The notes below the pieces were generated by a model. It saw nothing but the letters and a program-made list of their open reading frames with translations. It was not told where the DNA came from and searched no databases. Below, one piece after another: positions 26,361-53,956 of a stretch of 64,000 nt of DNA. Position numbers and translations under genes: made by a program. The DNA is from Pigmentiphaga sp. NML080357 (GTDB lineage: Bacteria; Pseudomonadota; Gammaproteobacteria; Burkholderiales; Burkholderiaceae_B): contig NZ_NINW01000024.1 in the NCBI RefSeq assembly GCF_002188465.1, forward strand, positions 248,001-312,000. The letters are read 5' to 3'. Positions within the stretch are counted from its first letter, which is position 1. Each line of letters begins with the position of its first letter.

Positions 26361-27719
26361 TCAGGTCGTGGCGCCGCGATGGGCGGCCACGACGCGGTCG
26401 ACGAAGGTGCCGGCAGCGCCGGTGTAGGCTTGGGGATCCAGCATGCGGTCGAGGTCCTCCGGCTTGAGATGGCGGGCGATGGTCGGGTTGGCCAGCAGGC
26501 CGTCCTTGAACGTGCCGCCGCGCTCGAACACGTCCATGCAGATTTCATAGACGAGTTCGTGGGCTTCCTGCCGGCCCAGATGGTCCCCCAGCTTCATCAT
26601 GACGGCCTCGGAAAGCAGGAGGCCTTTCTGCACGGACAGGTTGCGTTCCATGTTGTCGCCCCTGACGGTCAGGCCGGCTGTCACGTAGGCCAGCTTGGCG
26701 AAGGCGGCATCGGCCATGCAGCAGAGGCGGGTGACGAACTCGCGCTCGGTCTGCAGCACGATCTTGTCCCGCTCGTGCTCGGCCATCATGCCTTCGAGTC
26801 CCAGCGCGACGGTACTGCGCACGACACGGGAAATCGCCACGATGCCTTCGCACGCGGGCGGGTTGCGCTTGTGCGGCATGGTGCTGCTGCCCACTTTCCC
26901 CATGGTGAAGGGTTCTTCGAGCTCTGCGGTCTCGGTCTTCTGCAGGCTGTAGATCTCGTGGGCGATCTTGCCCGCGGTGCTGGTGCAGATAGCCAGCACG
27001 CAGGCCAGTTCGGCGATGCCGTCGCGCGCCACGTGCCAGCAGATTTCGGGGCAGGCGAGATCCAGCTCCTTGAACAAGGCCTCCTGGACCTCGATGCCGC
27101 GGTCGCCCAGGGCGGCCAGCGTTCCGACCGCGCCGGCAAACTGGCCGACCAGCACCCGTTCCTTCATCTGCCGCAGGCGCTCCAGGTTGCGGCCGATCTC
27201 GGCCGCCCAGACCGCGGCCTTGAAGCCGAAGGTGATGGGCAAGGCTTGCTGGCCGTGGCTGCGTCCCGCCATGGTCTGCGTGCGATGGCGCTGCGCCAGG
27301 GCAACGACGTTGGCGTGCGCGTGGCGGTAATTGCTCTCGATCTGGGCCAGGGCTTCCTTGACCTGAAGGATGGTGCCGGTGTCGACGATGTCCTGGGTCG
27401 TCGCTCCCCAGTGGATGAATTCTCCGGCATCGCCGTCGCATACCTTCTTCATCGCCCGCAGCAGCGGGACGATGGGATGGCTGGTGCGGTCCATCTCCTG
27501 CTTCAGTTCCGCCAGGTCGATGAGTTCTACCCTGGCCTTGGCCTGGATCTCGTCCGCGGCGTTCTGCGGAATGATGCCCATGCGGGCCTGCACGCGGGCA
27601 AGGGCGGCTTCCACGTCCAGCCATTTCTGGACGGTCTGTTCATCGCTGAAGATGGCGCGGGTGGCGGCGGTGCTGAACTGGTCCCGGAACAGCGCGCTGT
27701 CGATGACGTAGGCGCTCAT
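26361..27719 (-). CDS. Fumarase/aspartase-superfamily lyase (adenylosuccinate lyase/PcaB-like)
   Basis: A 452-residue helical lyase. The superfamily signature is GSSTMPHKRNPPACEG near 276-290, and the other two conserved regions are FIHWGATTQDIVDTGTIL and MAGRSHGQQALPITFGFK. These enzymes eliminate fumarate, or cyclise muconate, by base catalysis from a serine on the signature loop. PurB proper and PcaB are both possible by sequence alone. A degradative operon with a thiol dioxygenase, CoA-transferase and Bug receptor argues against purine synthesis. The start ATG at 27719 follows AGGAGA; nine upstream residues are not family-like. It is the last gene of the operon. Confidence 0.82.
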   Translation of the reverse strand: MSAYVIDSALFRDQFSTAATRAIFSDEQTVQKWLDVEAALARVQARMGIIPQNAADEIQAKARVELIDLAELKQEMDRTSHPIVPLLRAMKKVCDGDAGEFIHWGATTQDIVDTGTILQVKEALAQIESNYRHAHANVVALAQRHRTQTMAGRSHGQQALPITFGFKAAVWAAEIGRNLERLRQMKERVLVGQFAGAVGTLAALGDRGIEVQEALFKELDLACPEICWHVARDGIAELACVLAICTSTAGKIAHEIYSLQKTETAELEEPFTMGKVGSSTMPHKRNPPACEGIVAISRVVRSTVALGLEGMMAEHERDKIVLQTEREFVTRLCCMADAAFAKLAYVTAGLTVRGDNMERNLSVQKGLLLSEAVMMKLGDHLGRQEAHELVYEICMDVFERGGTFKDGLLANPTIARHLKPEDLDRMLDPQAYTGAAGTFVDRVVAAHRGATT

Positions 27720-27772
27720 ATGATCTGATCTCCTGGTGGGCAAGGGGGAAGGCGCGAGGCGATGCCGCGGCG

Positions 27773-28117
27773 CTACTCGGACTGGTTCTGGAGGAAGGCC
27801 TCCATGGCGTGCAGGGAATAGACGTAGGCCGCGCCGGCGTTCAACGCGATGGCCGTTCCCAGGGCATCGCTCAGCTCAGCCTCAGTCGCGCCCGCCTTGG
27901 CCGCCGCCGCGGCGTGGGAGGAAATGCAGCCGTCGCAGCGCGTGGTCACCGCCACGGCCAGGGCGATCAGCTCGCGCGTCTTGGCGTCCAGCGCGCCGTT
28001 GGCGCCCTGGGCGGCGTTGAGGCCGCGATAGGCCTCGAGCATTTTCGGGTTCGTGTTGCCCAGCTTGCTGGACGAAGCCCGCAAGGTGCCGAGCAACGCT
28101 TTCCAGTTTTCGAACAT
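27773..28117 (-). CDS. Carboxymuconolactone decarboxylase/AhpD-like protein
   Basis: A 114-residue all-helical CMD-family protein. It carries the AhpD-type redox motif C61-x2-C64-x3-H68 (TTRCDGCISSHAAAAAKAG), so it is more likely a peroxidase-reductase-like or thiol-active protein than a true decarboxylase. The start follows an AGGAG site. It lies between the lyase and the Bug receptor in the same leftward operon. A thiol-active partner fits the thiol dioxygenase upstream, but that link is inference. Confidence 0.85.
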   Translation of the reverse strand: MFENWKALLGTLRASSSKLGNTNPKMLEAYRGLNAAQGANGALDAKTRELIALAVAVTTRCDGCISSHAAAAAKAGATEAELSDALGTAIALNAGAAYVYSLHAMEAFLQNQSE

Positions 28118-28150
28118 GTATGGCTCCTGTTGTTGGGAAGTCGGGACGAA

Positions 28151-29122
28151 TCAATCAACCTTGGCGCCCGCGGCGCCGATCACTTTCTTCCAGCGGGCGA
28201 TGTCCTCGGCCAGGAAAGAGGCGAAGAACTCCGGCGTGCTGGTCATGGGATCCACGCCGGCGTGCGCCAGCTGGGTCCGGAATTTCTCGTCCGCCAGCGC
28301 ATCGTTCACGGCCTGGTTCAGGCGCCTGACGATGGCCGGCGGCGTACCGGCCGGGGCCAGCAGGCCATACCAGGCGGCGACGTCCATGCCGTCCACGCCG
28401 GACTCGGCCAGGGTGGGAATGTCGGGCACGGCCGAGGACCGCTTCGAGCTGGTCAGGCCGAGGATCTTGACCTTGTCGCTGCCCATCAGCGCCGACATGG
28501 ACGGAATGTTGATGAAGGTGAACTGGACCTCGCCCGTCTGCACCCCGTTGATGGAGGGGCCCGAGCCCTTGTAGGGAACGTGCGTGGCCGAGATGCCCGT
28601 TTGCAGCTTGAACAGCTCGGCGGACAGGTGCTGGGTGCTGCCGTGGCCGGACGAAGAGAAATTCAGCGTTCCGGGATGCCGCTTGCCGTAGGCGATGAGC
28701 TGCTTGACGTCGTTCACCGGCAGTTTGCTGGATGCGACCAGCAGATTGGGACTTTGGCCGAATACCGCGATGGGCGCGAAGCTCTTGACGGGATCGTAGT
28801 CCAGCCTGGGAAACAGGCTGACATTGATGGCCAGCGCCGAAGAGCTCAGGAACAGGGTGTAGCCGTCCGGGTCGGCCCGGGCAACATAGGTCGCGCCGAT
28901 GTTCTGGCCGGCTCCGGGCCGGTTCTCGACGATCACCGATTGGCCCAGCTTGTCGCCGAGCTGCTGGGCGAGCAGGCGAGCCGTCATGTCGGTGCCGCCG
29001 CCGGGCGTATAGCCGACGACGATCTTGACGGCACGCGCCGGATAGCCGGCGGCATCCGGGGCCGCTTGGGAGAGGGAGCTCAGCAGTGCAATGGCCGTGC
29101 CGGCCGCAAGACGATGAAGCAT
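28151..29122 (-). CDS. Bug-family tripartite tricarboxylate transporter receptor
   Basis: A 323-residue periplasmic receptor with signal peptide (LAAGTAIALLSSLSQA) and the family blocks KIVVGYTPGGGTDMTARLLA, VIVENRPGAGQNIGA, DPDGYTLFLSSS, KRHPGTLNFSSSGHGSTQHL and AWYGLLAPAGTP. It should bind the substrate or an intermediate acid of the surrounding pathway. No membrane subunits are nearby, as is usual for the expanded Bug family in Bordetella-type genomes. Confidence 0.92.
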   Translation of the reverse strand: MLHRLAAGTAIALLSSLSQAAPDAAGYPARAVKIVVGYTPGGGTDMTARLLAQQLGDKLGQSVIVENRPGAGQNIGATYVARADPDGYTLFLSSSALAINVSLFPRLDYDPVKSFAPIAVFGQSPNLLVASSKLPVNDVKQLIAYGKRHPGTLNFSSSGHGSTQHLSAELFKLQTGISATHVPYKGSGPSINGVQTGEVQFTFINIPSMSALMGSDKVKILGLTSSKRSSAVPDIPTLAESGVDGMDVAAWYGLLAPAGTPPAIVRRLNQAVNDALADEKFRTQLAHAGVDPMTSTPEFFASFLAEDIARWKKVIGAAGAKVD

Positions 29123-29174
29123 GGGTGTCTCCTGTCGTGCGCCCGGAACGGGCGCTTGTCATGAAAAGGCGGGG

Positions 29175-29924
29175 CTACTGCTTGGCCGCGCGTATGCGGG
29201 CGGCATAGTCTTGTATTCGTTGCTTCAACCCGGGCCTGGCCGCCGATCGGGTCAGCAGGCCGAGATCGGTGTCCCCGGCCTGCGCGCCATGCAGAACCCG
29301 GTCGATCAGCGCGCTGGTGACGAAGTCGGGGGAGGGGCCAGCGGCCGAAGGCAAGGCGCCCAGCGCGCTCGCACGCTCGTCGATGCGCTCGTGCGCGAGG
29401 CCGCTGGCCAGGGCTTCATCGGCGTCTATCCAGCGTCCGGTTCGTATCCAGTCCCGGGCAATGTCGGTGCCCACGAGCGAGGCCAGGCGGCGAGTGCCGA
29501 GCACCAGGCCGAAGCCGGCGGCCCCGGGAAAGGCGAACGACGCCTGGCCCCGGACGATGCGGTGCCGGCAGGCGGCGAACAGGTCGGCGCCGGCGCCCGC
29601 CACCTTGCCATGGGCGACGGCGACCGTCTCGAAAGGCGCCTGGTGCACGGCTTGCAGCAGCAGTTCGATGCGGATGAATCGCGCCAGCAGGGTATCGTCG
29701 GTTTCCTCGTGCAGGGCCGATAGATCCACGCCGGTGCAGAAGTGGCGGCCGGCTCCTTCCAGCACCAGGCGCCGCACGCGGTCGCGGACGCAGGCATCGA
29801 CCGCGCCGGCCAGGGCGTCCACCAACGGGGCGGACAAGGCGTTGCCCGTCCCGGGACGATTGAGCGTGATGCGCCGCGTGCCCGGACCGGCATCGGTCTC
29901 GATGAGCAAACTGTCGTCAGGCAT
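29175..29924 (-). CDS. Crotonase-fold (enoyl-CoA hydratase/isomerase family) protein lacking both catalytic glutamates
   Basis: A 249-residue crotonase. The oxyanion-hole segments are present (GRHFCTGVDLSAL near 60-71; GKVAGAGADLF near 107-116). At the two positions that hold the catalytic glutamates in hydratases it has D114 (GAGAD) and G134 (AFPG). Water addition as in classical hydratase is therefore unlikely. Crotonases with other acid residues do decarboxylation, thioester hydrolysis or C-C cleavage. It overlaps the end of the dioxygenase gene by 8 bp. The ATG at 29924 was chosen because residues upstream of it are the dioxygenase read out of frame. Confidence 0.8.
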   Translation of the reverse strand: MPDDSLLIETDAGPGTRRITLNRPGTGNALSAPLVDALAGAVDACVRDRVRRLVLEGAGRHFCTGVDLSALHEETDDTLLARFIRIELLLQAVHQAPFETVAVAHGKVAGAGADLFAACRHRIVRGQASFAFPGAAGFGLVLGTRRLASLVGTDIARDWIRTGRWIDADEALASGLAHERIDERASALGALPSAAGPSPDFVTSALIDRVLHGAQAGDTDLGLLTRSAARPGLKQRIQDYAARIRAAKQ

Positions 29925-30483
29925 TGGCGTATCCGGAAACGAAGGGCTTGGCGGCACCCGTACCGGGGTCGAAGACGTGGCGCGTCTGCTTGCCGATATC
30001 CGTGCCGTAGACGTGGATGCTGATGGATACCTGATCGTCGAACGCGTTGCGCACGAGATGGATGTCGCCGGCCGTGGGCGAAACGAGCGCGGTCTGGCCC
30101 GGTTCCAGGCGTTCCTCGGTGGGAGCGGCCACGAGACGCCCGTCCACCTTGGCGTATGCGCGCGAGAACTCGGCACCGCGCAGCATGCCGATGACGCCCC
30201 AGGTGCCATGGTCGTGGATCGGCGTGCGTTGGCCGGGACCCCAGACGAAGCTGACTACCGAATAGCGGTCGGCGGGGTCGCGATACAGCAGGTATTGCTG
30301 GTAATAGGTCGGGTGAGGGCGGGCGCAATCCTCGGGTAGCCAGTCGTCGTGGGCGATGAGTTCGCGCAGCAGCGCCTCGCAGGCCAGCATCGCCCCGGAC
30401 TCGCAAGGCGAGGCCTCGATCGCGGCGTCCATGTCCCGGACGAAAGCGGCCAGCCGGGCGGCTAGCGCGGGTGTCGTCGTCAT
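29917..30483 (-). CDS. Cysteine dioxygenase-like thiol dioxygenase, Gln-type (3-mercaptopropionate dioxygenase-like)
   Basis: A 188-residue cupin iron enzyme that would oxidise a thiol to a sulfinate. The iron ligands are H90 and H92 (PIHDHGTWG) and H142 (GDIHLVRN). The conserved Ser-His-Tyr relay is S155, H157 and Y159 (SISIHVYG). Where cysteine-specific enzymes have the carboxylate-binding Arg, this protein has Gln in YYQQYLLY (62-63), the pattern of bacterial Gln-type enzymes that prefer 3-mercaptopropionate. The Cys of the mammalian Cys-Tyr crosslink is absent. It shares ATGA with the CoA-transferase gene upstream and overlaps the crotonase gene. Substrate assignment is inference. Confidence 0.85.
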   Translation of the reverse strand: MTTTPALAARLAAFVRDMDAAIEASPCESGAMLACEALLRELIAHDDWLPEDCARPHPTYYQQYLLYRDPADRYSVVSFVWGPGQRTPIHDHGTWGVIGMLRGAEFSRAYAKVDGRLVAAPTEERLEPGQTALVSPTAGDIHLVRNAFDDQVSISIHVYGTDIGKQTRHVFDPGTGAAKPFVSGYANA

Positions 30484-31643
30484 GCCAGTTCCTCCCCGGC
30501 GGCGCGCCGGATCGCCTTGTCGTGCTCGCCCAGGGCGGGAGGTGGGCGGCGTATCGGCAGGGATTGTCCGTTCAGCCGGACCGGCGAGGCGAACGTCCGG
30601 GTCTCGTGTCCGCCGGGCAGGCGCAGTTCGCGCACCCAGTCCATGTGCCGCACCTGGGGGTCGGCCAGGGCCGATGCGTAGTCGTTGATGCGGGAATGGG
30701 GCACGCCGGCCTGCCGGAAGACTTCGATCCAATGGTCCACGCCGTGCAGCACGAAGCGCTCCTCCAGGATCTCCTTCAACGCGGCCTGGTGGCGGGCCCG
30801 CTCGAGGATGGTGCGAAAACGCGGATCGCGGTCGAGTTCGGGCAGCTCGACCGCACGCACGACGGCGCGCCACAGGTTGTCGTTGCCGGCCGCGATGGCG
30901 AAGTAGCCATCCGCGGCGCGGTAGGCCTGATAGGGGGCGTTGCGCGGATGGGCGGATCCCAGTTTGCGCGGGCTGGCGCCGGTGCCGAAGTACTCGCTGG
31001 TCTGGAGCGCGCCGATGGCCAGCGTGCAGCCGAACATGGGAATGTCGATGTGCACGCCGCGGCCGCCTTTCAACGCCTTCAGCAGCGACGAGGCCACGGC
31101 GAATGCCGCGTACAGGCCCGACGCGAAGTCCGAGACCGGCACGCCGCATTTGACCGGGGCGTCGGAGTCGCCGGTCACGCTCATCACCCCGGCCGCCGCC
31201 TGCATGGTCAGGTCGAAGCCGCCTTCCTGGGCCCGGGGGCCGCTCTGGCCGTAGGCGGAGATCGAGCAGTAGACCAATGCCGGATTCAGTACGGATAGCG
31301 CGGCGTAGCCGAGTCCCAGCCGGTCCATGACCCCAGGGCGGTTGTTCTCGATGAGCACATCGGCCCCGCGGACCAGTTCCTTGGCCGCGGCGAGGCCGTC
31401 CGGGGTTTTGAGGTCCAGCACCACGGACTGCTTGTTGCGGTTCAGCGCGGCGAAGTTCTCGCTGTAGCCGTCGCTCAGCGGCGGCCAGCCCCGCATGGCG
31501 TCGCCACCCGGAGCTTCGACCTTGACGACCTCGGCGCCCAGGTCGGCCAGCAGCATTCCGCAGAACGGACCGGCCGCGATCGAGCAGAACTCGACGACGG
31601 TAACGCCGGCCAACGGCAGTTCGCGGGTTTCGATGTCGCTCAT
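30480..31643 (-). CDS. Class III (CaiB/BaiF family) CoA-transferase
   Basis: A 387-residue family III CoA-transferase that moves CoA between carboxylic acids. Family marks are VVEFCSIAAGPFCGMLLADL, GAEVVKVEAPGGDAMRGWPP, the NRNKQSVVLDLKTPDG block, ADVLIENNRPGVMDRLGLGY, CSISAYGQSGPRA and the catalytic Asp region GGFDLTMQAAAGVM. It is the first gene of the leftward operon, opposite the IclR gene, and overlaps the dioxygenase gene by 4 bp. In known 3-mercaptopropionate breakdown a family III transferase activates the sulfinate product, which makes the pairing notable. Confidence 0.92.
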   Translation of the reverse strand: MSDIETRELPLAGVTVVEFCSIAAGPFCGMLLADLGAEVVKVEAPGGDAMRGWPPLSDGYSENFAALNRNKQSVVLDLKTPDGLAAAKELVRGADVLIENNRPGVMDRLGLGYAALSVLNPALVYCSISAYGQSGPRAQEGGFDLTMQAAAGVMSVTGDSDAPVKCGVPVSDFASGLYAAFAVASSLLKALKGGRGVHIDIPMFGCTLAIGALQTSEYFGTGASPRKLGSAHPRNAPYQAYRAADGYFAIAAGNDNLWRAVVRAVELPELDRDPRFRTILERARHQAALKEILEERFVLHGVDHWIEVFRQAGVPHSRINDYASALADPQVRHMDWVRELRLPGGHETRTFASPVRLNGQSLPIRRPPPALGEHDKAIRRAAGEELA

Positions 31644-33959: not shown

Positions 33960-36380
33960 TCAGACATCGGAAGACGGATCGAAATCCATGCGCCGCATCG
34001 CATCGGCCAGCGACACGCGGGAGCGCTCGTAATCCGCCCAGGGCGCGTTGCCCGTGGCCAGGCGGTCGCCCAATACGTGCAGCGTCCAGTGCGCGGAGCT
34101 CGTGAGCGTGTCGAGTTCGTCCCAGGCGATGGGCACCGATACCGCCAGCCCGGGGCGCGCGCGGACCGACCAGGCACAGACGGTGGTGGCGCCGAACCCG
34201 TTGCGCAAGTAGTCGATGAATATCTTGCCCACCCGATTCCGCGGTCCGCTCTTGGCCACGAAATGCCGGGGCAGGGTCTGCGCCAGGTGCTGGACGATTG
34301 TGCGCGAGAAAGCCTTGACGGTGTCCCAGTCGTATTGGGGCCGCAGCGGCACGATGATGTGCATGCCCTTGCCGCCGCTCGTCTTGAGGAAGGCCGGCAG
34401 GCCCAGTTCCTGAAGGAAAACATGCAGCAGCTTGGTGCCTTCCTGGATCTGCGCCCACCCCACGCCTTCGCCCGGATCCAGGTCGAAGGTCATCCGGTCG
34501 GGGGTGCCGATGGCGCGGTCCACGCCGTTCCAGGTATGCAGTTCGATAGTGTTCATCTGGGCCGCCGACAGCAGCCCCTGGAGGTCGTCGATCTTCATCA
34601 GCGGCGGATGGCCGGGGTCCAGTTTCTGCGGCAGCCGCACCACGCCCGGCAAGGCGGCCTTGTCGGCATGCTTCTGGAAGAAGAGCTCGCCGCCTATGCC
34701 GTCGGGCGCCCGCACCAGCGCCACCGGCCGGTCTTTCAGGTGCGGCAGCAGCAGGGAGGACAGCGCGGCGTAGCACTGGACGAGCTGCAGCTTGGTGATG
34801 CCGCTCTGCTTGTCGATGACCCGGCCGGGATGGCTGACGCGGAACGAGGAGGGCAGCCCGTTGCTTTGCATGGTTTCCGATTCCTTGGGAGGAGCGGTGG
34901 GTTTCTCGCGTACGACGGCGCCCGCGGGCTTGTCGGTGCGCAAGCCGCGGAACACGCCTTGCCGGATGTGGCCTCCCGCGGTCCACTCCGCGAAGGAAAC
35001 CTCCGCCAGCAGTTCGGGGCGCACCCAATGCGCCCTGCCCAGGCCCGCGAGGTTGCGCTGGAACGGGGAGCGGGACGCGTGCAGTTCGTCCAGGCGTTTT
35101 TTCAGCGATGTGAGTGTGCGCTGATCGAAGCCGGACCCCACGTTGCCCGCGTAGCGCAGGTGGCCTTCGTCGTCGTATACCCCAAGCAGCAGCGAGCCCA
35201 GGCCCGTGCGGGTGCCCTTCGGGTCGGTATAGCCGCCGATGACGAACTCCTGGCGGTTCTGGCACTTGAGCTTGATCCAGTCAGAGGATCGTCCCGAGCG
35301 ATAGCCGCCGTCCTTGCGCTTGCCGATCACGCCCTCGAAACCGAGCTTGCAGGCCGAGGCCACCAGATCGCGGGGCGTCGCCTCGAACGCATCGCTGAAG
35401 CGCACGTGGGCGCGGTCGGCGTCGTGCAGCAGGTTCTCCAGGGTGGCCCGCCTGTCGGTCAGCGGCAGACGGCGCAGGTCGCGGCCCGCATAGAAGGGGA
35501 TGTCGAACAAGTAGTAGACCACGCCGCGCGCGGCGCCGGTCTCGAAAGCGTTCTGCAAGGCCTGAAAGTCCGGGATGCCGTGTTCGTCCGGTACGATGAT
35601 CTCGCCGTCGAGCCAGGCATCGGCCAGTTTCATCGCGGCCAGCGCATCGCGCAGCTCCTTGAGCTTGGCGGTCCAGTCCTTGCCGGTGCGGGTGAAGAGG
35701 CGCACCTCGCCGTTCTCGATCCGCGCCAGTACCCGGTAGCCGTCGAATTTCAGCTCGTACTGCCAGTGCTCGTGGTCGGGCGGAGCCGTGTCGACCAGTG
35801 TGGCCAGCTGCGGTTCGAGGCGGCCGGGCAATTCGTCATAGGCGGGAGCCGGCGCCGACGCCTCCTCGGCATCGGCCTGGGGGCCGGCGGCGGCGTACTC
35901 GTCCTTTTCCTTGATCAGCAGCCAGGCCGGTTGTTTCTCGGTCTTGCGCATGCGCACCAGGGCCCATTGCCCGTGCAGCTTGGTGCCGCGCAGCTCGAAC
36001 TTGAGCTTGCCGGCGCGGTAGCCTTTGCGGGGATCCTCGAGGGGTACCCAGGTGCCGGCATCCCAGATGGCCACTTCGCCCGCGCCGTAGTGGCCCTCGG
36101 GGATGCGGCCTTCGAAGCTGCCGTAGGAAAGCGGATGGTCCTCGACCTGTACCGCCATGCGCTTGACGCCGGGGTCCAGGCTGGGGCCCTTGGGAACCGC
36201 CCAGCTCTTGAGCGTGCCGTCCAGCTCGAGGCGAAAATCGTAGTGCAGGCGCCGGGCCGCATGCCGCTGGACGACGAAAGACAAGGCGTGGCCGCCGGGC
36301 TTGCCGCCTTCGCTCGGTTCGGGCGTGTGGGCAAAGTCGCGCTTGGCGCGATAGGTGCGAAGGCTGTCGTTCCTGGCCAT
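33960..36380 (-). CDS. ligD: Multifunctional ATP-dependent DNA ligase D for non-homologous end joining
   Basis: An 806-residue three-domain enzyme acting with Ku on double-strand breaks. The order is phosphoesterase, ligase, polymerase. The N-terminal 3'-phosphoesterase has FVVQRHAARRLHYDFRLELD and VEDHPLSYGSFEGRIPEGHY. The ligase core has the nucleotidyl lysine in YELKFDGYRVLARIENGEV, then GVIGKRKDGGYRSGRSSDWI. The C-terminal primase-polymerase domain has RVSHPGRVID, TFDLDPGEGVGWAQI and GGKGMHIIVPL. The ribosome-binding site GGAGGA precedes the ATG at 36380. It begins 21 bp after the ku stop, so they form one operon. Confidence 0.96.
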   Translation of the reverse strand: MARNDSLRTYRAKRDFAHTPEPSEGGKPGGHALSFVVQRHAARRLHYDFRLELDGTLKSWAVPKGPSLDPGVKRMAVQVEDHPLSYGSFEGRIPEGHYGAGEVAIWDAGTWVPLEDPRKGYRAGKLKFELRGTKLHGQWALVRMRKTEKQPAWLLIKEKDEYAAAGPQADAEEASAPAPAYDELPGRLEPQLATLVDTAPPDHEHWQYELKFDGYRVLARIENGEVRLFTRTGKDWTAKLKELRDALAAMKLADAWLDGEIIVPDEHGIPDFQALQNAFETGAARGVVYYLFDIPFYAGRDLRRLPLTDRRATLENLLHDADRAHVRFSDAFEATPRDLVASACKLGFEGVIGKRKDGGYRSGRSSDWIKLKCQNRQEFVIGGYTDPKGTRTGLGSLLLGVYDDEGHLRYAGNVGSGFDQRTLTSLKKRLDELHASRSPFQRNLAGLGRAHWVRPELLAEVSFAEWTAGGHIRQGVFRGLRTDKPAGAVVREKPTAPPKESETMQSNGLPSSFRVSHPGRVIDKQSGITKLQLVQCYAALSSLLLPHLKDRPVALVRAPDGIGGELFFQKHADKAALPGVVRLPQKLDPGHPPLMKIDDLQGLLSAAQMNTIELHTWNGVDRAIGTPDRMTFDLDPGEGVGWAQIQEGTKLLHVFLQELGLPAFLKTSGGKGMHIIVPLRPQYDWDTVKAFSRTIVQHLAQTLPRHFVAKSGPRNRVGKIFIDYLRNGFGATTVCAWSVRARPGLAVSVPIAWDELDTLTSSAHWTLHVLGDRLATGNAPWADYERSRVSLADAMRRMDFDPSSDV

Positions 36381-53937: not shown

Positions 53938-53956
53938 TAGTGAATTTTTGCAGCCC

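Follow-up and report, generated by a model that had tools for sequence, protein, structure and literature searches.

The question raised by this locus is whether a compact set of genes in Pigmentiphaga sp. NML080357 serves the breakdown of a sulfur-containing acid and, if it does, which enzyme removes the sulfur. The window, by which we mean the whole stretch of 64,000 nucleotides analysed (contig NZ_NINW01000024.1, positions 248,001 to 312,000), belongs to a genome of 5.73 Mb in 59 contigs that groups with Pigmentiphaga. A preliminary description, made from the letters of the window alone, had proposed an operon for the degradation of a thiol or thioether acid at 26361−31643. In A. mimigardefordensis DPN7T, 3-mercaptopropionate (3MP) is oxidized to 3-sulfinopropionate, which is activated with CoA, a step assigned to the ligase SucCD, and then desulfinated by Acd (PMC5373536). 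Our analysis confirmed the operon and gave good support to a role in thiol-acid catabolism; roles for its lyase and its crotonase can be inferred. Three of its genes, encoding a class III CoA-transferase, a thiol dioxygenase and a crotonase without the hydratase glutamates, are a recurrent cassette across many Burkholderiales, and the operon looks built to differ from the known 3MP pathway in the enzyme for sulfur removal.

Gene content of the operon

Six intact genes, all on the minus strand, occupy 26361−31643, and each was assigned to its Pfam family above the gathering score, as the preliminary description had placed and named them. The first encodes a class III (CaiB/BaiF) CoA-transferase of 387 amino acids with Asp172 as catalytic candidate (caiB, 30480−31643; PF02515, 411.7 bits). 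It is followed by genes for a Gln-type thiol dioxygenase of 188 amino acids that resembles 3MP dioxygenase (3MDO) (29917−30483; PF05995, 25.9 bits over 23) and for a crotonase-superfamily protein (29175−29924; PF00378, 77.4 bits). The sequence ATGA is common to the caiB stop and the dioxygenase start, and the dioxygenase and crotonase genes overlap by 8 bases; these overlaps make translational coupling of the first three genes likely. The direct coupling of a Gln-type dioxygenase to the transferase, claimed earlier, was borne out by the ATGA overlap and by the presence of Gln63. The remaining genes encode the Bug/TctC periplasmic receptor (28151−29122; PF03401, 252.3 bits), which had been recognized correctly, an AhpD-like protein (27773−28117; TIGR00778, 64.9 over a cut-off of 27.8, and PF02627) with the expected CxxC motif, C61-D-G-C64, and a lyase of the aspartase/fumarase superfamily (26361−27719; PF00206 and PF10397). 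The most probable start of the lyase is the ATG at 27719, which follows AGGAGA, rather than the TTG at 27743.

Recurrence of the cassette

The four closest dioxygenases in named records were 76−78% identical to that of the operon and came from P. kullae, an Alcaligenaceae bacterium, a Burkholderiales metagenome-assembled genome and a Pigmentiphaga sp.; for further genomes, the label Burkholderiales was deduced from these relatives with names. Five of ten sampled congeners have a dioxygenase with 75% identity or more, and the operon is therefore patchy within the genus. Among 80 loci fetched, the full order, iclR divergent from caiB-dioxygenase-crotonase-bug-ahpD-lyase, was kept in two Pigmentiphaga and two close relatives (loci L032−L035) and in Cupriavidus (L037, L040, L041 and L042). 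Genes of relatives were called by a simple codon-bias script, and their neighbors were named from family scans and otherwise by eye.

A search of 399 genomes of the order found the crotonase in 49 (E ≤ 1e-30, own genome included) and the dioxygenase in 73 (E ≤ 1e-40). Both occurred together in 42 genomes, compared with 9.0 expected (Fisher p 1e-29, with the own genome counted and relatedness ignored). The 29 best-scoring of the 48 foreign crotonase places were fetched with short flanks. Dioxygenase and CoA-transferase genes both lay on the same strand at 18 of these loci; two others had the dioxygenase only and four the transferase only on that strand. The dioxygenase was within 1.5 kb of the crotonase at 22 of the 48 foreign places, and at 3.2−8.4 kb in five more.

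Neighboring proteins were selected for scanning by eye, and the following examples are not a tally over all loci. A cystathionine beta-lyase gene lay near the cassette in L070 (TIGR01324, 448.6 over a cut-off of 365.9), a BisC-family S/N-oxide reductase gene in L148 (965.7 of 1017.55), and BisC-like genes, by similarity, in L055 and L070. These neighborhoods suggest that one cassette is fed, in different bacteria, by thiols from different C−S breaking or S-oxide reducing enzymes. In L167 the dioxygenase gene adjoined one for the acrylyl-CoA reductase AcuI (495.6 over 440). BoxA- and/or BoxB-like genes (benzoyl-CoA degradation, by eye) were also seen near the cassette or its crotonase in L105, L116 and L155.

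The thiol dioxygenase

The operon dioxygenase was the only match to PF05995 in the genome at E ≤ 0.001. Its best solved relatives in the PDB were 4qma, named cysteine dioxygenase type I and presumably from R. eutropha, the P. aeruginosa 3MDO (3uss/4tlf) and the A. vinelandii 3MDO (6xb9; AvMDO). The mercaptosuccinate dioxygenase 8vni matched much more weakly (45.1 bits versus 188.6−208.6). In AvMDO, roles have been assigned to the active-site residues, including Gln63 as the position that distinguishes the Gln type and Arg168 as the binder of the substrate carboxylate (PMC8050391). The iron ligands H90, H92 and H142, the triad Ser155-His157-Tyr159, Gln63 and Arg168 (AvMDO numbering) are all kept in the operon protein. 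They were conserved in 22 of 22 cassette-linked dioxygenases, where linked means that a transferase or crotonase gene lies on the same strand no more than 2.6 kb away, and equally in 66 of 66 other, free dioxygenases aligned; these residues therefore indicate the chemistry and not a special substrate.

For a tree of 91 rows, 24 of 112 dioxygenase matches were removed beforehand as duplicates or short. The solved proteins 3uss, 6xb9 and 4qma fell in a clade of 55 rows that held none of the 22 linked ones (support 83/93, below the star mark of the tool). Four rows counted as free (L011, L017, L023 and L095) have caiB and a crotonase a few kilobases away and likewise lay outside that clade. Both kinds of dioxygenase were present in Cupriavidus pauculus UM1 (L042 and L082). 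By its residues the operon enzyme appears 3MDO-like; because it falls outside the clade of the solved 3MDOs in this tree, we treat it as a candidate 3MDO. Position 62 of AvMDO is Arg in 12 of 22 linked and 5 of 66 free dioxygenases, and Gln in the protein from the window; an Arg there might bind a second carboxylate.

The CoA-transferase

The best NCBIfam model for the caiB product was succinate--glutarate CoA-transferase (NF052585), with 304 of the 750 bits needed. In an alignment of 37 sequences, that of the window among them, Asp172 was kept in 97% or more. In V. paradoxus TBEA6, 3-sulfinopropionate is activated by SucCD or by Act, a succinyl-CoA-dependent transferase (PMC6370202). The earlier proposal, that a thiol acid is oxidized to a sulfinate and activated with CoA by a family III transferase, was strengthened by the conserved active site, by the recurrent cassette and by the gene content of the characterized 3MP cluster.

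The crotonase and the missing desulfinase

The crotonase had been described as a non-hydratase, and the sequence agreed: at the positions we take to be those of the two catalytic glutamates of enoyl-CoA hydratase, both glutamates are replaced, and Asp114 and a Gly-rich segment stand in their stead. When 52 sequences of the subfamily were aligned, Asp67, Glu87, Asp114 and Arg146 were kept in 93% or more; in an alignment of 8 they were invariant. The predicted structure (mean pLDDT 76.1, pTM 0.78) confirmed the fold. In the PDB the crotonase matched 3isa (161.6 bits; model against 3isa, Z 30.7 over 239 residues), a solved member of the subfamily that has no assigned function and is named putative hydratase/isomerase only. 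The other structural matches among the 50 entries listed have the crotonase fold as well; their names were varied and offered no clue to function.

None of 18 matches to the desulfinase Acd in this genome reached the NF042439 cut-off of 600 bits, the best scoring 305.8; all 18 were scored against this model, and 10 of them were also scanned against NCBIfam. Proteins in two of the 399 genomes reached the cut-off, so the model can pass; the flanks fetched in those two genomes contained no dioxygenase. An Acd-like gene beside free Cupriavidus dioxygenases was considered and set aside: its best PDB matches were the type-2-domain proteins 5gj7/5z8t (198.6 bits), compared with 62.3 bits for 5af7, which we take to be the Advenella desulfinase. 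Free dioxygenases (L082 at 6742−7911, and other Cupriavidus and Pseudomonas loci) often share their locus with such an acyl-CoA-dehydrogenase-type-2 protein, 5gj7-like and not Acd.

The crotonase adjoining the dioxygenase is the natural candidate for the enzyme that would cleave the C−S bond in place of Acd, that is, a desulfinating enzyme. The genome also encodes AcuI, unlinked to the operon (493.9 over 440); together with the AcuI gene beside the dioxygenase in L167, this favors acrylyl-CoA as the product.

The lyase and its paralogue

The lyase stayed under the cut-offs of its best NCBIfam models, NF006500 (485.6 of 626) and XcbD, NF052536 (480.4 of 600), and under those for 3-carboxymuconate cycloisomerase (PRK09053, 428.5 of 595; TIGR02426, 297.1 of 355.75). 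Two other identities were rejected. With the PurB model PRK09285 (NF006764, cut-off 446), the C58 gene of this genome scored 731.9 and the lyase 81.5, which leaves the housekeeping role to the former; in TAD1, a trans-aconitate decarboxylase, and in the five rows that cluster with it, the position of lyase His155 is occupied by Asn. The lyase keeps His103, His155 and Ser279, residues of the adenylosuccinate lyase type to which we presumptively give the catalytic roles they have in that enzyme.

In the 399 genomes, 30 lyase places were found at E ≤ 1e-100, and seven of these, the own one included, had a dioxygenase within 8 kb. The dioxygenase-linked lyases formed two clades, one of Pigmentiphaga and Cupriavidus, the other with genera g74 and g38; the second also contained unlinked rows and a paralogue from this genome. 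In g74 the lyase lay 5.3−7.6 kb from the dioxygenase in five genomes, and the three clusters inspected, L224−L226, additionally encode Bug proteins, an oxidoreductase of the PIG3 family (family scan, L224) and, by eye, TctA/TctB-like proteins. In g38 (L218 and L227) the two genes point away from each other, with 181 bases between them. In one genome (G047; L228, 5231−6000) only a short gap, with no lyase in it, separates tripartite-transporter-like genes from the dioxygenase; G138 has the lyase there.

The paralogue (C34; its cluster spans 158500−173500, L229) is 43% identical to the operon lyase. Its neighbors encode an S/N-oxide reductase of the BisC family (902.7 of 1017.55), a member of the rhodanese family, a Bug receptor, a GlcD-like oxidase, an MmgE/PrpD protein and an IclR-looking protein (by eye). 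The sole NCBIfam match of the rhodanese protein at E ≤ 1e-25 was 3-mercaptopyruvate sulfurtransferase. The order BisC, sulfurtransferase, Bug, lyase, GlcD, MmgE/PrpD was the same in genome G013 (L231), with 61−79% identity; that range leaves out Bug, for which the comparison was with the Bug of the window only. The paralogue cluster is possibly a separate succino-thiol pathway.

S-(2-succino) lyases (2SL) of the same superfamily release fumarate from S-succino thiols (PMC9706529). The preliminary description had suggested that the lyase could release a thiol. This gained ground from the 2SL precedent and from the homologues near thiol dioxygenases in two other genera, and an S-succino-thiol lyase is the best inference for the operon enzyme, which we treat as a candidate.

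Regulation, transport and neighboring genes

A gene for an IclR-family regulator (31777−32559, plus strand; PF01614 and PF09339) is divergent from caiB and falls beyond the range described earlier. An IclR gene neighbors caiB in L032−L035 and in the Cupriavidus loci L037 and L040−L042 as well. Between iclR and caiB lies a palindrome, GTTCTA-CATAA-TAGAAC (31741−31757), the single site in the 64-kb window for the pattern GTTCY-N6-TAGAAC. Among 18 relatives examined, the palindrome was found between iclR and caiB in nine (L032−L035, L037, L040−L042 and L114), directly upstream of caiB in L070, elsewhere only in L148, and was absent in seven. It is likely the IclR operator. An Rfam scan of 26000−33000 gave no match.

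Regarding transport, a TctC was required for growth of TBEA6 on 3,3'-thiodipropionate (TDP) (PMC8102459). For the AhpD-like protein, C61 and C64 were invariant in eight aligned sequences, the window included. Dihydrolipoamide dehydrogenase is a partner of AhpD. In Advenella, a disulfide is cleaved by a disulfide reductase named LpdA (PMC5373536). Genes read by eye as those of 2-oxoglutarate dehydrogenase (20491−26215) run towards the operon; in Cupriavidus the neighbors of the operon are different.

Elsewhere in the window, a LigD gene (806 amino acids) adjoins a Ku gene at 33960−37268, a non-homologous end-joining pair. A second catabolic cluster at 53948−63752 has Pfam matches to acyl-CoA dehydrogenase, MmgE/PrpD, hydantoinase B, amidohydrolase and an AMP-binding ligase; by eye it also has a frame resembling hydantoinase A and, at the end of frame 59319−61343, a Bug-like protein. 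Its frame 60389−61399 had no Pfam match.

Proposed pathway and alternatives

Our principal explanation, to which we give an even chance, is that these genes are a catabolic operon for a succino-thioether acid. The Bug receptor would bind the substrate, and the lyase, judging from its residues, its context and 2SL, would beta-eliminate an S-(2-succino)-thiol acid to fumarate and a short thiol acid, 3MP or a near analogue. The AhpD-like CxxC protein, a candidate thiol/disulfide partner, may open a disulfide or keep the thiol reduced. The dioxygenase, with its observed active-site residues and the function of its family, is expected to oxidize the thiol to a sulfinate, and the CoA-transferase, by family function and analogy with Act, would form the sulfino-acyl-CoA, probably from succinyl-CoA. 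The crotonase would then assist C−S cleavage of this thioester, and IclR may govern the operon through the conserved palindrome. A more specific version, which we put forward tentatively and hold to be distinctly less probable, is that the crotonase itself cleaves the C−S bond as a non-homologous replacement for Acd in a widespread cassette, fed here by the lyase, and that the paralogous lyase feeds a 3-mercaptopyruvate-type branch with S-oxide reductase and sulfurtransferase.

Several observations weigh against the succino-thioether pathway or parts of it. A dioxygenase within 8 kb was lacking at 23 of the 30 lyase places, and because the lyase is found in part of the cassette loci only, it is an add-on. 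The lyase also exceeds the cut-off of the purB model TIGR00928 (348.9 over 326.2). Neither partner was on the same strand at 5 of the 29 foreign crotonase loci, and 7 of the 49 crotonase genomes had no dioxygenase at the cut-off used; the crotonase family is thus not bound to thiols alone. The BisC-family proteins scanned score below their model cut-off, as does the rhodanese protein of the paralogue cluster (143.2 of 250). A single literature search for a desulfinating crotonase found no description of one, and sulfoxylate, which is uncommon as a leaving group, would be set free if a beta-sulfinate were eliminated. Finally, the precedent invoked earlier for a family III transferase in 3MP breakdown calls for caution: in Advenella the step from 3-sulfinopropionate to its CoA thioester is attributed to SucCD, although the cluster has a family III transferase (PMC5373536).

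Because beta-elimination of a sulfinate is chemically unusual, we kept as a rival the same operon acting on an alpha-thiol, for example the 2-mercapto acids thioglycolate and mercaptosuccinate. Here the crotonase would extrude SO2 from a 2-sulfinoacyl-CoA and hold the enolate in its oxyanion hole, much as methylmalonyl-CoA decarboxylase, also a crotonase, does with CO2. Such a reaction would be the best chemical fit to a crotonase without hydratase glutamates, and it agrees with the failure of the Acd search and with the position of the linked dioxygenases outside the solved-3MDO clade. We nevertheless think it unlikely: the carboxylate-binding Arg168 is kept in every linked sequence, AcuI in L167 indicates acrylyl-CoA and hence a beta-thiol, and sulfinosuccinate hydrolyses spontaneously (PMC5373536), so that mercaptosuccinate would need no CoA.

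Quite unlikely, in our estimate, is an order in which CoA comes first, as proposed for Ech-20 of TBEA6: the transferase would activate a thioether acid of the TDP type, the crotonase would split it to acrylyl-CoA and 3MP, and the dioxygenase would act next. This order draws on the report that growth of TBEA6 on TDP needs two enoyl-CoA hydratases and is helped by a crotonase-family protein, all clustered with mdo, act and acdA, and that TDP-CoA stabilizes Ech-20 (PMC6370202); AcuI beside the dioxygenase in L167 would fit as well. With this order, however, the genome would offer no desulfinase for the sulfinate, and the lyase would be left without a task. The task of the lyase could also lie apart from the thiol, if one transcript served two unrelated functions, lyase and Bug for a succino-amine or tricarboxylate, and caiB, dioxygenase and crotonase for a thiol acid. 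Bug without a dioxygenase within 8 kb was found in the fetched flanks of 10 of the 29 lyase loci outside the window, and in Cupriavidus an MmgE/PrpD gene is found next to the lyase gene at L037 and in its vicinity at L040 and L041. What speaks against this improbable arrangement is that lyase and dioxygenase are associated in three lineages whose gene arrangements differ, and that the paralogue clusters with sulfur-type genes.

Relation to known systems

The preliminary description knew of no pathway with exactly this set of genes. None was found in the open-licence literature among the matches listed, but a close relative it did not name is the 3,3'-dithiodipropionate cluster of A. mimigardefordensis, a member of the Alcaligenaceae, the family of Pigmentiphaga as well. 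That cluster has a family III CoA-transferase, Mdo, an AhpD-core protein and TctC (two there), which match the operon at the level of families (PMC5373536). It differs in that its Acd was not found here, a crotonase adjoins the dioxygenase here, and the operon adds a fumarase-superfamily lyase; the regulator is IclR here and LysR there, and the operon contains no methylcitrate genes. With no Acd found and a lyase added, the operon would work like the Advenella 3MP cluster without being a member of its kind. The TDP cluster of TBEA6 shares mdo, the succinyl-CoA-dependent Act and crotonase-type genes; in addition to its crotonase-family protein it encodes AcdA and two enoyl-CoA hydratases, and the genes described in the accessible part of that source include no fumarase-superfamily lyase (PMC6370202).

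The 2SL of the yxe loci, likened by family only, shares the lyase class I superfamily and, as predicted for the operon enzyme, frees fumarate from an S-succino adduct; the yxe pathway uses an acetyltransferase and a deacetylase and ends in cysteine (PMC9706529), and neither enzyme is among the six operon proteins. XcbD, a 3-sulfopropionylcysteine synthase of the same superfamily, is among the two best models for the lyase, and its name implies C−S chemistry, but the lyase does not reach its cut-off.

When fumarate succinates thiols, the result is a recognized kind of metabolite damage; a described route that undoes it is the yxe pathway, with YxeK or 2SL (PMC9706529). If our explanation is true, an operon for S-succino-thiol acids would add a catabolic route in which the sulfur compound is a carbon source. 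The cassette would then be a second enzymatic answer to the desulfination of sulfino-acyl-CoA and would give a function to the crotonase subfamily of 3isa, and it would bear on polythioester precursors and on the environmental fate of mercapto acids.

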